A DNA stretch of 35,835 bases from Elusimicrobiota bacterium (GTDB lineage Bacteria; Elusimicrobiota; Elusimicrobia; UBA1565; UBA9628): the NCBI GenBank assembly GCA_030696455.1, contig JAUYSH010000075.1, forward strand, positions 1 to 35,835. The letters are read 5' to 3'. Position 1 is the first letter of the stretch. Each line of letters begins with the position of its first letter. Made by a program: the position numbers and the translations under genes. This document shows positions 13,108 through 17,033 of the stretch, one piece after another. The notes under the pieces were generated by a model. The model worked only from the letters and a program-made list of their open reading frames with translations. It made no database searches and had not been told where the DNA came from.

Positions 13108-13731
13108 ATGCCCAAGCTATTCGTCAGCGACCACCCCCTCGTCTCCGACAAGCTCGCGCGCCTGCGCGACAAGCGCACCAATCCCCAGGACTTCCGTCGC
13201 TTGATGGCCGAGGTGGCCATGCTGATCGGCTGCGAGGTCCTCAAGGGCGTGCGCACGCGCAAGACGACGGTCCGCACGCCGCTGCAGACGGCGCCGGCCC
13301 TGATCCTCGACCAGCCGCTGACCTTCGTCGCGGTCCTGCGCGCGGGCCTGGGCATGACGCCGGGCCTGCTGGAGCTGGCCCCCAAGGCGTCCATCGGCCA
13401 CATCGGCCTCTACCGCGACGAGAAGACGCTCGAGCCCGTCCAGTACTACGTCCGCCTGCCCAAGAAGATCGAGGGGCATTTCGTCGTGCTCTGCGACCCG
13501 ATGCTCGCGACCGGCGGCTCCGCTTCCGAATCCATCCGTATTTTAAAGGCCGCCGGCGCCAAGAACATCGCCTTGCTGACCTTGCTCTCCTCCCGCCGCG
13601 GCGTGGCCCGCATCCACAAGGATCATCCCGACGTCCCGGTGTACACCGCGGTGGTGGACTCCGTGCTCAACGCGAAGGGCTACATCGTCCCCGGCCTCGG
13701 CGACGCCGGCGACCGCCTCTTCAACACCTGA
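13108..13731 (+). CDS. upp: Uracil phosphoribosyltransferase
   Basis: This 207-residue cytoplasmic enzyme converts uracil and PRPP to UMP. It starts at the ATG at 13108 with GGAG at 13099-13102. Diagnostic segments are FVAVLRAGLGMTPGLLELAP, IGLYRDEKTLEPVQYY, the PRPP loop LCDPMLATGGSA and the C-terminal uracil-binding YIVPGLGDAGDRLFNT. The length matches bacterial Upp (about 208). It ends the nucleoside phosphorylase operon and is followed at 13760 by a strong hairpin shared with the convergent small-protein gene. Confidence 0.95.
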   Translation: MPKLFVSDHPLVSDKLARLRDKRTNPQDFRRLMAEVAMLIGCEVLKGVRTRKTTVRTPLQTAPALILDQPLTFVAVLRAGLGMTPGLLELAPKASIGHIGLYRDEKTLEPVQYYVRLPKKIEGHFVVLCDPMLATGGSASESIRILKAAGAKNIALLTLLSSRRGVARIHKDHPDVPVYTAVVDSVLNAKGYIVPGLGDAGDRLFNT

Positions 13732-13759
13732 GCGCGCCGCCCCCTCCGGAGAAATGAAA

Positions 13760-13783
13760 AGCCCCGTCCGAAAGGACGGGGCT
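13760..13783. terminator. Bidirectional intrinsic terminator between upp and small-protein gene A
   Basis: A 10-bp perfect stem, AGCCCCGTCC and GGACGGGGCT, closes a GAAA loop. On the minus strand the 3' side is TTTTCATTT-like, a good U-tract for the gene ending at 13811. On the plus strand the tail (TGCGCTTTC) is weaker but can serve upp. Confidence 0.8.
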
Positions 13784-13810
13784 TGCGCTTTCAGGCGAGG
13801 GCGTATCAGC

Positions 13811-14056
13811 TCAGCCGCACTTGTTGGGCCACACGCACGTCGTGATCTCTCCCGAGGCCGCGATGACGGGCGCCGGGGCGGCCGAGGTCGCGGGAGCGAC
13901 CGTGCAGGTCTTGGGCCACACGCAGGGCTGGAACTGGGCCACGACCGGAGCCGGGGCGGTCTTGCACGTGTTGGGCCACACGCAGGGGCGGAACTGGGCG
14001 GTGGCCTGGGGGGCCGGCGTCGCCGTAAGGAACGTCGCGAGGATCAAGGTCATCAT
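13811..14056 (-). CDS. Exported CVWPN-repeat small protein A
   Basis: This protein has 81 residues from the ATG at 14056, chosen because AAGGAG lies 8 bases upstream; an in-frame ATG at 14062 is too close to it. A hydrophobic N-terminus (MMTLILATFL) resembles a short signal sequence. The rest is three copies of a unit, AQFRPCVWPNTC, AQFQPCVWPKTC and EITTCVWPNKCG, joined by Pro/Ala linkers (KTAPAPVV, APATSAAPAP). Cysteines at 25/31, 45/51 and 74/80 form three C-x5-C pairs, suited to disulfide loops or metal/cofactor binding outside the cytoplasm. I do not recognise a family. Two paralogues follow upstream (62 and 84 residues) with the same unit and the same promoter layout. Other possibilities include a modified-peptide precursor, though no modifying enzyme is nearby. 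Confidence 0.75.
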   Translation of the reverse strand: MMTLILATFLTATPAPQATAQFRPCVWPNTCKTAPAPVVAQFQPCVWPKTCTVAPATSAAPAPVIAASGEITTCVWPNKCG

Positions 14057-14088
14057 GGTCATGTCTCCTTACGAAAGATTGTAAGGAC

Positions 14089-14167
14089 AGGATATCGCTT
14101 CCCCGCGGAGCCGCCGAGGACGCGGGTCAAATCGAAACCTTGATCTCCGTCACTTGATCGCGCTCAA
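14089..14167 (-). promoter_or_regulatory. FNR-type promoter region of small-protein gene A
   Basis: Read on the minus strand: box TTGAGCGCGATCAA (14167-14154), directly followed by GTGACGGAGATCAA (14153-14140), 9 bases, a degenerate box TTGACCCGCGTCCT (14130-14117), then TATCCT (14094-14089). With a start at 14082 the box centres are -78.5, -64.5 and -41.5, as in the two paralogues. TACAAT (14083-14078) is an alternative -10, 11 bases (one helical turn) downstream. Confidence 0.6.
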
Positions 14168-14203
14168 CGATGAGCGTTCCCTTTATCCCCCATCGAGCCT
14201 CCA

Positions 14204-14221
14204 ACTGTTGTCGACAACAGT
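14204..14221. repeat. 18-bp perfect palindrome
   Basis: ACTGTTGTCGACAACAGT reads the same on both strands. It lies between the terminator of gene B and the promoter of gene A. The inner 16 bases have the CTGT-N8-ACAG format of gammaproteobacterial LexA boxes. No SOS-type gene is next to it, so its function is unknown. Confidence 0.6.
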
Positions 14222-14246
14222 CGGCTCGCGGGGTGTGCATAAGAAA

Positions 14247-14272
14247 AGAGCCTCCGAGGGGTCGGAGGCTCT
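14247..14272 (-). terminator. Intrinsic terminator of small-protein gene B
   Basis: An 11-bp perfect stem (AGAGCCTCCGA and TCGGAGGCTCT) has a 4-base loop, GGGG on the plus strand. On the minus strand the hairpin is followed by TTTCTTATG, a U-rich tail. Confidence 0.8.
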
Positions 14273-14298
14273 CGTGCGGCTGCCGGTTCGAGGCCGGT

Positions 14299-14487
14299 TC
14301 AGAGGGCGACGGTCTTCGGGGCGTCCTTCTTGACGCACTTGTTGGGCCAGACGCAGGTCGTGAACTGCGCGATCACGGGGGCCGGCGCGGTCTTGCAAGT
14401 GTTGGGCCACACGCACGGGCGGAACTGGGCCGTCTCGGTCGCGGGCTGGGCGTTGAACAGCGAGAGCGTCAAGATGAGGTTGATCAT
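14299..14487 (-). CDS. Exported CVWPN-repeat small protein B
   Basis: This 62-residue protein starts at the ATG at 14487 (MINLILTLSLFN). The start has no Shine-Dalgarno site; a TACACT box ends six bases upstream, implying a leaderless message. After a short hydrophobic N-terminus come two repeat units, AQFRPCVWPNTC and AQFTTCVWPNKC, joined by KTAPAPVI, and a basic tail (VKKDAPKTVAL). Cysteines are 25/31 and 45/51. The final unit in all three paralogues begins TTC and has a Lys before the last Cys, while earlier units are FRPC or FQPC, so the two unit types may have different roles. Its N-terminus is nearly identical to paralogue C (MINLILTLSL). Function unknown. It has its own terminator and promoter, so the three genes are separately controlled. 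Confidence 0.75.
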   Translation of the reverse strand: MINLILTLSLFNAQPATETAQFRPCVWPNTCKTAPAPVIAQFTTCVWPNKCVKKDAPKTVAL

Positions 14488-14493
14488 TGAGAC

Positions 14494-14572
14494 AGTGTAC
14501 CGCGGCCGCGGAAATCGGCCTAGGATGGCGGTCAACGCTCCCGTTTGATGCCCGTCATTAATGCTCCCGCAA
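14494..14572 (-). promoter_or_regulatory. FNR-type promoter region of small-protein gene B
   Basis: On the minus strand ATGACGGGCATCAA (14558-14545) is centred at -64.5 from the predicted start at 14487. TTGACCGCCATCCT (14535-14522) is centred at -41.5, and TACACT (14499-14494) is the -10 box. The distal box at 14572-14559 is degenerate. There is no -35 box, as expected for activation from -41.5. Confidence 0.6.
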
Positions 14573-14613
14573 CCGGGCCGTCATGGGTCGAACATAGGCG
14601 GACATAAAATGAA

Positions 14614-14639
14614 GAAGACCCCGAGGGGTCGGGGTCTTC
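14614..14639 (-). terminator. Intrinsic terminator of small-protein gene C
   Basis: An 11-bp perfect stem (GAAGACCCCGA and TCGGGGTCTTC) has a loop that is GGGG on the plus strand. On the minus strand it is followed by TTCATTTTATG. The layout matches the terminator of gene B, although the outer stem differs in sequence. Confidence 0.8.
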
Positions 14640-14671
14640 GCACGGCGCCGGTTCGAGGCCGGTTTAAAGGT

Positions 14672-14926
14672 TCAGGCTTTCTTGCCGCACTTGCGCGGGT
14701 ACACGCAGGTGGTGAACTGCGCGACCTCGACGACCGGCGCGGTCTGGGTCGCGGGAGCGACCCGGCAGACGTTGGGCCACACGCAAGGCCGGAACTGAGC
14801 GACCGTCACGGGGGCCGGAGCGGTCTTGCAGACGTTGGGCCACACGCAGGGCCGGAACTGGGCCGTCTGGGCCGCCGGAGCGGCGTTGAAGGAGGAGAGC
14901 GAGAGCGTCAGAATCAGGTTGATCAT
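14672..14926 (-). CDS. Exported CVWPN-repeat small protein C
   Basis: This 84-residue protein starts at the ATG at 14926, six bases after a TATACT box, so it is probably leaderless. The short hydrophobic N-terminus is MINLILTLSLSSF. Three units follow: AQFRPCVWPNVC, AQFRPCVWPNVC and AQFTTCVYPRKCG, with Pro/Ala/Val linkers and a KKA tail. Cysteine pairs are 27/33, 48/54 and 74/80. The last unit has Tyr for Trp and Arg for Asn, so the tryptophan is not absolutely required there. The N-terminus lacks the usual positive charges of a signal peptide, so membrane retention or cleavage after the Q-T-A is uncertain. It lies directly downstream of the Crp/Fnr gene on the same strand. Function unknown. 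Confidence 0.75.
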   Translation of the reverse strand: MINLILTLSLSSFNAAPAAQTAQFRPCVWPNVCKTAPAPVTVAQFRPCVWPNVCRVAPATQTAPVVEVAQFTTCVYPRKCGKKA

Positions 14927-14932
14927 GCATAC

Positions 14933-15011
14933 AGTATACCGGCCGCATGATTTATCTCCGATGAGTCCGGACAACCCGCGCGCTTGATGGATATCAATTG
15001 ATCTGGGTCAA
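14933..15011 (-). promoter_or_regulatory. FNR-type promoter region of small-protein gene C
   Basis: On the minus strand TTGACCCAGATCAA (15011-14998) abuts TTGATATCCATCAA (14997-14984), a perfect TTGAT-N4-ATCAA box. TTGTCCGGACTCAT (14974-14961) and TATACT (14938-14933) follow. Centres relative to a start at 14926 are -78.5, -64.5 and -41.5. The region lies just after the stop of the regulator gene. Confidence 0.7.
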
Positions 15012-15032
15012 AAGACCTGGACCGGGCGGGAC

Positions 15033-15740
15033 TTAGGACGCAGAGCCCGCGAGGGCCCGGAGGCGTTCTTCGCTGAGGATCAGCAGGTCCTTTTCCTTCT
15101 TGCGCAGCACGGCGCGCTCCTCGAAGTCCTTGAGCAGGCGCACCGTGGTCTCGATCGTGAGCCCGGCCATCTCGGCGAGGTCGCGGCGCTTGATGCCGGC
15201 GACGATCGCGTAGGGCTTCTTGGGGACCATCATGCGGATCAAGGTGTCGGCCAGGCGGCCGCGCGCGGGCTTGAAGGCGATGTCGCGCGCCTTGTTCTCG
15301 CCCCGGCGGACGTCCTTGGCGAGCTCCTTGAGGAGCGCGTGCGAGGCGGGCGGATACTTCGCGAGGAAGGCGTAGAAGGTGTTCTTGTCGATCATCGACA
15401 CGATGCTGGGCTCGAGGGCCTCGCCGGTGGCGGTATAGGCGCCTTCGTCGGAGAGCAAGGTCACGTGCCCGAGGAGGTCGCCCGGAGACTCGACGCGCGT
15501 CGTGAGCTGCTGGCCGGTGCGGCTCGATTTGTAGACCTTCACCTTGCCGGTGCAGACGACGTAGACGCCCTGGGGCATGGCGCCTTCGTGGAAGATCACC
15601 TCGCCGCGCTTATGGGGGTGGGCGAGACGTATCTCGCGCCAGGCTTTTTTGGACTCCTTCGTGCCGAGGAGCTCGTAAAAGCAGTTTTTCTTATAAGGGC
15701 ACCAATCGCAATTGGGCGCGTCTCGCTTCGAATAGGCCAT
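15033..15740 (-). CDS. Crp/Fnr-family regulator with FNR-type cysteine cluster
   Basis: This 235-residue cytoplasmic regulator has a CX2CX5C cluster at Cys11, Cys14 and Cys20 (CDWCPYKKNC), the same spacing as the three N-terminal [4Fe-4S] ligands of E. coli FNR. A cyclic-nucleotide-binding-like beta barrel follows (RGEVIFHEGAMPQGVYVVC, SPGDLLGHV), then a dimer helix and a winged helix with recognition helix GLTIETTVRLLKDF. The Glu and Arg that read TTGAT in FNR are kept; the FNR Ser is Val here. The fourth FNR cysteine (Cys122) aligns with Ser, but Cys63 is a possible substitute. It probably senses oxygen, NO or redox state. Three small-protein genes downstream have matching boxes. The start at 15740 has TATAAT seven bases upstream. 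Confidence 0.85.
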   Translation of the reverse strand: MAYSKRDAPNCDWCPYKKNCFYELLGTKESKKAWREIRLAHPHKRGEVIFHEGAMPQGVYVVCTGKVKVYKSSRTGQQLTTRVESPGDLLGHVTLLSDEGAYTATGEALEPSIVSMIDKNTFYAFLAKYPPASHALLKELAKDVRRGENKARDIAFKPARGRLADTLIRMMVPKKPYAIVAGIKRRDLAEMAGLTIETTVRLLKDFEERAVLRKKEKDLLILSEERLRALAGSAS

Positions 15741-15747
15741 CGCACGA

Positions 15748-15753
15748 ATTATA
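15748..15753 (-). promoter_or_regulatory. Predicted -10 box of the Crp/Fnr gene
   Basis: TATAAT on the minus strand ends 7 bases before the ATG at 15740, predicting a leaderless or nearly leaderless message. No clear -35 box or FNR-like box is present at the matching upstream positions. Confidence 0.5.
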
Positions 15754-15791
15754 GCAACTTAAGAGCGAAGGGTGGCCTCCCCTCCTCTATA

Positions 15792-17033
15792 TCAGCGCAG
15801 GGCGACGCGGTCGGAGTACTCGGCGACGGTGGAGCCGAAGGCGGTCAGGTCGCGGACCGCGGCGAGCTCGGTGTCGGTCTTGGCCTGCATCACGAAGCGG
15901 CGCAGGTCGTTGGGGCCGGCGCAGGCCTTGAAGGCCTCCTTCAGGGCGTTCATCGCGACGGCGGTCTTGCCGGACATCGCGTAGGCGATGGCGAGCTGGT
16001 AGTGCGCCGACGGGTTCATCGGGTTCTGCTGGAGGGCCTTCTGCAGGGAGCGGATGGCGACGTCGGAGGAGCCGAGCTTGTTGTAGGCCGTGCCGATCTT
16101 CTCGTAGATCTGGGCGGTCTGGGGCGCGCCGAGGGTCATGCGCTCCTGATCGAGCGACAAGGCCTCGTTGTAGGAGGAGACCGCCGACAGGTAGCGGCGG
16201 AACTTGAACTCGACGTTGCCCTGGGCGATCTTCTCGAGGACCTCGGCGTCCTGGGCCGGGGCGGCGGGCTTCGGAGCGGTGTCGCGGACGGCGTCGCGCA
16301 TATCCTCGCCGCGCAGGCCGAGATCGGCGACCATCGTGCCGTCCTCCTCCGAGCCGATGCCGAGGGCCTTGCGTGAGGCGCCGTTGGCGATCAGCGGGGC
16401 GAAGGCGGGGTCGCGGCGCACGGCGTCGCGCAAGGTCTTGCCCTGGCCGGCCTTCATCGCCTTGGTCATGGCGAGGTCGATGTTCGCGACGGCCTTGGCG
16501 GTGTCGCCCATCTTCAGTCTGAGTCGGGCGGCGTTCATGGGAATCAGGGACTTGGTCGGGGCCGCGCGCAAGGCCATCTTGTAAGCGTCGAGCGCCTTGT
16601 CGTAGGACTGCACGGCCTCGTAGCACAGGGCCATCGAGAAGTACAGGCGGGAGGCGTCGGGCAGCTCCTTCAGCGACGAATCGAGGCTCAGGGCCATCGC
16701 GTAGGCGTCGATCGCGGACTGGGCGTCGTCGCGGTCGGCGGACTCGGTGGAGCCCTGCTTGAAGCCGCGCTGGTAGTGGGCCCAGCCCAGCAGGAAGTAG
16801 GTCGAAACCGAGCCTTGCTTGCGCACGGCCTTGTTGAAGGTCGAGATCGCGGCGGAGGTCTCGCCGGCTTCCAGGTTCGCCAGGCCGGCCGACATCAGGC
16901 GCTGGGCCTCGGGATGAGCCTTGGACTTGGGGGCTTTCTTGCTCTTGGAAGCGTTCGCCGGAGGGGTGCACAGAAGAGCGGCCAACGCGATGGTGAGGAC
17001 GATTCCGATCGTCTCCGTCAGGTTTCTCTTCAT
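15792..17033 (-). CDS. Exported tetratricopeptide-repeat protein
   Basis: This 413-residue protein has a signal peptide (MKRNLTETIGIVLTIALAALLC, then ANASKS). Several TPR-like units are visible: AQRLMSAGLANLEAGETSAAISTFNKAV, YFSMALCYEAVQSYDKALDAYKMAL, and near the C-terminus IYEKIGTAYNKLGSSDVAIRSLQKAL and AHYQLAIAYAMSGKTAVAMNALKEAF. A less regular middle section (residues 180-260) is Asp/Ala-rich. TPR proteins of this kind act as periplasmic scaffolds; no enzyme motif is seen. A Cys at the end of the hydrophobic core (ALLC) makes a lipoprotein possible, but the lipobox is imperfect. The start at 17033 is six bases after TATACT, so leaderless translation is likely. The regulator gene lies 51 bases downstream with its own promoter. 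Confidence 0.75.
   Translation of the reverse strand: MKRNLTETIGIVLTIALAALLCTPPANASKSKKAPKSKAHPEAQRLMSAGLANLEAGETSAAISTFNKAVRKQGSVSTYFLLGWAHYQRGFKQGSTESADRDDAQSAIDAYAMALSLDSSLKELPDASRLYFSMALCYEAVQSYDKALDAYKMALRAAPTKSLIPMNAARLRLKMGDTAKAVANIDLAMTKAMKAGQGKTLRDAVRRDPAFAPLIANGASRKALGIGSEEDGTMVADLGLRGEDMRDAVRDTAPKPAAPAQDAEVLEKIAQGNVEFKFRRYLSAVSSYNEALSLDQERMTLGAPQTAQIYEKIGTAYNKLGSSDVAIRSLQKALQQNPMNPSAHYQLAIAYAMSGKTAVAMNALKEAFKACAGPNDLRRFVMQAKTDTELAAVRDLTAFGSTVAEYSDRVALR

Follow-up and report, generated by a model that had tools for sequence, protein, structure and literature searches.

A two-box FNR-type promoter layout shared by secreted micro-protein genes and other, mostly secreted, proteins in Elusimicrobia

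The window, the whole stretch of 35,835 nucleotides analysed here, belongs to a metagenome-assembled genome from the Elusimicrobia (147 contigs, 4.0 Mb in total), in which it constitutes contig C135. Read along the minus strand, it carries a gene for an FNR-like regulator of the Crp/Fnr superfamily (15033-15740) followed by three micro-genes, C (14672-14926), B (14299-14487) and A (13811-14062), which encode secreted micro-proteins of 84, 62 and 83 amino acids, respectively. The three genes are paralogues whose products combine a hydrophobic N-terminal segment with CX5C repeats of the type AQFRPCVWPNTC, three in A and C (CVWPNVC, CVWPNVC and CVYPRKC in the latter) and two in B; a Pfam search found no family for these micro-proteins. 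Because each micro-gene is followed on the same strand by a strong intrinsic terminator of its own (14614-14639 for C, 14246-14273 for B and 13759-13784 for A), three separate promoters are required. Lying between the fnr-like gene and upp, the micro-gene cluster (13759-15032) behaves like a block that can be removed: where the micro-genes are absent, as in genomes G011, G014, G021, G026 and G032, the fnr-like gene and upp, which encodes uracil phosphoribosyltransferase, directly face one another.

Numbered from predicted transcription starts at 14926 (C), 14487 (B) and 14082 (A), the three minus-strand promoters have one layout in common, namely box 2 at -71 to -58, nine bases, box 3 at -48 to -35, 22 bases and a -10 hexamer, with a core consensus of a TGAN5ATCAA box centred at -64.5 and a TTGNCC box centred at -41.5. 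In gene C, box 2 (14984-14997) is TTGAT-ATCC-ATCAA, box 3 (14961-14974) is TTGTC-CGGA-CTCAT and the -10 (14933-14938) is TATACT; the corresponding elements are ATGAC-GGGC-ATCAA (14545-14558), TTGAC-CGCC-ATCCT (14522-14535) and TACACT (14494-14499) in gene B, and GTGAC-GGAG-ATCAA (14140-14153), TTGAC-CCGC-GTCCT (14117-14130) and TATCCT (14089-14094) in gene A. Genes C and A have in addition a box 1 centred at -78.5 (-85 to -72) that directly abuts box 2, TTGAC-CCAG-ATCAA at 14998-15011 and TTGAG-CGCG-ATCAA at 14154-14167, respectively, while gene B shows only a poor remnant, TTGCG-GGAG-CATTA, at this position. The minus-strand sequence thus bears out what an earlier sequence-only reading had described: the paired boxes before all three genes, the abutting box before two of them and a perfect TTGAT-N4-ATCAA upstream of gene C. 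That reading had also pointed to a second -10 candidate for gene A; the hexamer, TACAAT, is present here but absent from the orthologues of the gene, in which TATCCT is kept.

Box 2 matches the FNR-type 14-bp palindrome, and box 3 matches it by its upstream half and the TC of its downstream half. Among 55 promoters counted, the distance from box to -10 was 22 to 24 bp, the values of 24 bp being TATACT at 22 bp read greedily as TACTGT, and the box is thus centred at about -41.5 relative to the predicted starts. As had been proposed, a functional -35 hexamer is missing, with no sigma-70 -35/-10 pair found by a promoter scan of 13700-15800. Such an arrangement is that of class II activation by E. 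coli FNR, which acts mostly from -41.5, where it contacts sigma and alpha (PMC3688515). The E. coli promoters of narG, dmsA and nirB likewise have a 14-bp TTGAT-N4-ATCAA-like box at -41.5, a poor -35 or none, and a -10 hexamer 22 bp past the box. The promoters described here differ from them in having throughout a second, better-matching box at -64.5, fixed at 23 bp, and in their targets, which are secreted micro-proteins rather than respiratory enzymes. A single start preceded by two FNR boxes is also found in the tandem-FNR promoters of E. coli (yfiD, with sites at -40.5 and -93.5, and engineered melR derivatives), although with a box spacing different from that of the Elusimicrobia promoters; the melR derivatives with tandem FNR sites are reportedly those of Barnard, Green and Busby in 2003. 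Most FNR promoters of E. coli have a single site (89% of ChIP peaks; PMC3688515), and the distal site of yfiD is a repressing one, according to PMC11264516.

The layout is more frequent than expected by chance. A genome scan with the fixed-spacing core pattern TGAN5ATCAAN9TTGNC returned five exact matches in 4.0 Mb and none for a reversed-pattern control, as compared with approximately 0.04 chance matches estimated from base composition. When the window was scored with a weight matrix derived from 18 promoters that belong to other genera and families, excluding every same-genus sequence, the three sites ranked first to third at 34.2, 32.2 and 28.9 bits, whereas the best score among 60 first-order Markov randomised windows was 18.1; ranks four to six were the same three sites on the other strand, since the boxes are nearly palindromic. 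The paralogy of A, B and C could in principle make the layout a relic of recent gene duplication devoid of regulatory meaning. We regard this as extremely improbable: the box columns of the three promoters agree at 25-29 of 37 positions (68-78%) and the remaining columns at only 17-21 of 54 (31-39%), which argues against a recent copy, and the layout is kept over families and before unrelated genes, so that duplication alone was rejected. The same paralogy does qualify the earlier description of three independent promoters with common spacings: the spacings hold, but the promoters are not mutually independent, and independent support has to come from other genes.

Conservation was assessed in 58 relatives, 44 of which contain the micro-protein family at E <= 0.1, the weakest of these matches being at chance level. 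The relatives supplied 47 micro-gene promoters; 45 of them have the box 2-N9-box 3 core, with exactly nine bases between the boxes in each, and a 46th was recovered by a sequence profile. Conserved positions are concentrated in TGA, ATCAA, TTGAC, TCAT and the -10, and the spacers carry almost no information. Box 1 occurs in 36 of the 47 promoters, where it precedes box 2 by exactly 14 or 13 bp, and is lacking in gene B orthologues; promoters of families f2 and f3 carry one more box at a 13-bp pitch, giving start-to-start offsets from box 3 of 23, 36 and 49. Among 150 genomes sampled across the phylum, 144 had no profile match at E <= 1e-5 and the six that matched all belong to this order, so the survey doubles as a good false-positive control for the profile.

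To look beyond the micro-genes, a profile trained on their promoters alone was run over this genome and its relatives. In this genome it detected, beyond A, B and C, one strong site (C50:7499, E = 7.5e-11) and two weaker ones (C53:25846 and C125:7628), all three preceding genes for proteins with signal-peptide-like starts. Relatives yielded dozens of non-micro matches, 40 of which were read individually; the targets include secreted proteins that are rich in proline and have an FDG motif close to their end, a family of secreted proteins with two Cys, DUF333 proteins, small proteins in which CX5C recurs as CSPGHIC or CAINHTC repeats, and one 71-residue protein lacking a signal peptide, and for several of the main ones a Pfam search found no family. 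In all 33 non-micro promoters examined, the upstream box lies at the 23-bp offset (the search core fixed the downstream half of this box and left its upstream half free) and box 1 is absent. The core device therefore consists of two boxes, with box 1 an addition confined to the micro-genes. Recurring in dozens of related genomes before unrelated genes for secreted proteins, the promoter layout has the look of a genuine switch for a set of genes not described before, as far as can be judged from sequence. Secreted micro-proteins that look unrelated but have this promoter type again contain CX5C repeats (13811-14926 and loci L154, L162 and L167), the variants being CVWPNTC, CVYPRKC, CQAPRRC, CSPGHIC and CAINHTC; the CVWPN type is without a Pfam family.

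Exact TTGAY-N4-RTCAA sites number 18 in this genome versus four for the reversed pattern, and three of the 18 have a -10-like hexamer exactly 22 bp downstream. These single boxes 22 bp before a -10 are L192, L196 and L191 (G000 contigs C74, C88 and C58). Two of the targets, named by reading their sequences, resemble 2-oxoacid:ferredoxin oxidoreductase and GTP-type PEP carboxykinase, and the third is another gene; the two named targets would be in keeping with an anaerobic role of the regulator. The PEP carboxykinase-like gene and the third single-box gene are apparently leaderless. A perfect FNR-type box was also observed just 3' of the stop codon of a second Crp/Fnr paralogue (L170; G000:C52:12208-12221).

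The protein encoded at 15033-15740 has the Crp/Fnr fold with an effector domain and a helix-turn-helix: Pfam assigns cNMP_binding (3.1e-20) and HTH_Crp_2 (3e-11), and an AlphaFold model (pLDDT 85.7) matches the FNR structures of A. fischeri and E. coli (PDB 5E44 and 5CVR) with Z values of 16.9-17.6, the highest being for A. fischeri FNR. It also has in common with these proteins an N-terminal CX2CX5C motif (C11, C14 and C20) and the Glu and Arg of the recognition helix (E197-T-T-V-R201), and Cys11, Cys14, Cys20 and Cys63 together with E197, V200 and R201 are invariant in an alignment of 27 orthologues. In contrast to A. fischeri and E. coli FNR, no Cys follows residue 63 and C63 is the sole further Cys, leaving the protein devoid of a C122 equivalent, and of the E209-x-x-S212-R213 helix signature only the Glu and Arg are kept, with V200 instead of Ser212. 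Owing to these two departures the protein was filed as FNR-like, not as a textbook FNR. C63 lies in the beta-roll (VYVVCTGK) and is kept along with CX2CX5C and no other conserved Cys, which makes it a possible relocated fourth iron-sulfur ligand.

Orthologues of this protein were found at E < 1e-50 in 47 of the 58 genomes, and in 27 genomes of families f1-f3 a profile match lies within about 150 bp past the fnr-like stop codon on the same strand (hand tally). When co-occurrence was examined as a possible proof of the identity of the regulator, the motif was present in 37 of the 47 genomes with an FNR-like orthologue and in 6 of the 11 without, a difference that is not significant (Fisher p = 0.13). 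The six motif-positive genomes that lack an orthologue are MAGs of 77-92% completeness. The boxes might instead be bound by another Crp/Fnr paralogue, with the neighbouring regulator a genetic hitch-hiker, and two such paralogues are encoded in the genome, C52:11496 (helix PEAVSR) and C101:12589 (helix REPLTR). The C52 helix retains the Ser-Arg pair of FNR, and C101 orthologues occur in four of the motif-positive genomes without an FNR-like gene. Against this, C52-type proteins (E <= 1e-30) are absent from 22 of 43 motif-positive genomes, which makes the C52 paralogue an unlikely candidate, and C101-type proteins are absent from nine, compared with six for the FNR-like protein; judged by distribution alone, C101 is still a candidate. 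Moreover, the C101 helix is CRP-like (Arg-Glu...Arg), and such a helix predicts TGTGA sites. Neither paralogue was seen adjoining the promoters, and we consider binding by either one rather improbable.

Taken with the box sequences, the class II spacing, conservation over three families and recurrence before unrelated genes, the adjacent Crp/Fnr gene upholds the FNR-type interpretation of the earlier reading. We think it probable that the micro-genes are switched on by a Crp/Fnr-type dimer, the likeliest being that encoded at 15033-15740, through class II plus upstream activation. Each micro-gene would form its own transcription unit of promoter, gene and terminator; a dimer on the -41.5 box would act as class II activator and stand in for the missing -35, and the -64.5 box, which is better conserved and lies 23 bp (some two turns of the helix) farther upstream, would take up a second dimer that contributes recruitment or cooperativity. 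Given the weak downstream half of box 3, this box would need the support of the strong box 2 to be occupied. The regulator may carry a [4Fe-4S] cluster and sense O2 or NO. The same two-box core would control a set of other, mostly secreted, proteins. Several points weigh against this interpretation: the association of regulator and motif across genomes is not significant; the downstream half of box 3 reads CTCAT or GTCCT instead of ATCAA, so that a reader other than an FNR dimer could be involved; a pair of dimers should collide on boxes that are 13-14 bp apart; and the candidate regulator has Val at the Ser212 position and no counterpart of C122.

Such a collision concerns box 1. The earlier reading had doubted that abutting 14-bp boxes could hold two dimers; the doubt is justified, and it gains in interest with the conservation of the 13/14-bp pitch. 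Box 1 would be hard to fill alongside box 2 and is probably an alternative register or a competitor site. One form of competition would involve two Crp/Fnr proteins at the micro-gene promoters, one on the -41.5/-64.5 pair and a competitor on box 1, resulting in a switch and not simple activation. The conserved pitch of box 1, the third box in f2 and f3 and the absence of box 1 from non-micro promoters are what a separate added function would lead one to expect, abutting boxes should exclude one another, and upstream FNR sites can convert activation to repression in E. coli, as discussed in PMC11264516. However, a single consensus describes both box 1 and box 2, with no sign in the sequence of two specificities, and a two-protein switch seems unlikely to us. 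A further, tentative proposal, which we also consider rather unlikely, is that overlapping arrays of identical Crp/Fnr boxes at a fixed 13-14-bp pitch, too tight for dimers to sit next to one another, constitute a separate cis-regulatory device. In it, a class II promoter would be tuned or toggled by register exchange among the boxes at -64.5, -77.5/-78.5 and -90.5, combined with a [4Fe-4S] cluster whose relocated fourth ligand is C63.

Our literature search found no report of Elusimicrobia FNR regulons or of 13-14-bp FNR box arrays. What appears to be new is the conserved two-box core, the abutting box exactly 13 or 14 bp upstream, the further box at 13-bp pitch in sister families and the apparently leaderless state of many of the genes. 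An uncultured lineage thereby gains a candidate redox-responsive regulon that can be searched for by a precise signature and is tied to secreted micro-proteins, hitherto unannotated, that have CX5C repeats, and the natural series of one, two and three overlapping upstream boxes offers a way into how closely packed activator sites work.

As to the leaderless transcripts, the predicted starts of B and C coincide with the A of the ATG and their mRNAs are therefore predicted to be leaderless, while gene A has a leader with a Shine-Dalgarno sequence, AAGGAG. Among 23 micro-gene promoters of the genus, 14, namely all B and C types, place the ATG six bases past the -10, half of these having been listed by the script as four bases with TACTGT read for TATACT, and the start codon falls 6-9 bases past the -10 in 20 of 31 non-micro promoters. 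Many genes under the two-box core thus seem to be leaderless, to judge from predicted starts. The regulator gene may be so as well: a TATAAT at 15748-15753 stands seven bases before its ATG, with no Shine-Dalgarno sequence, a feature of the fnr-like gene that is retained in much of the genus.
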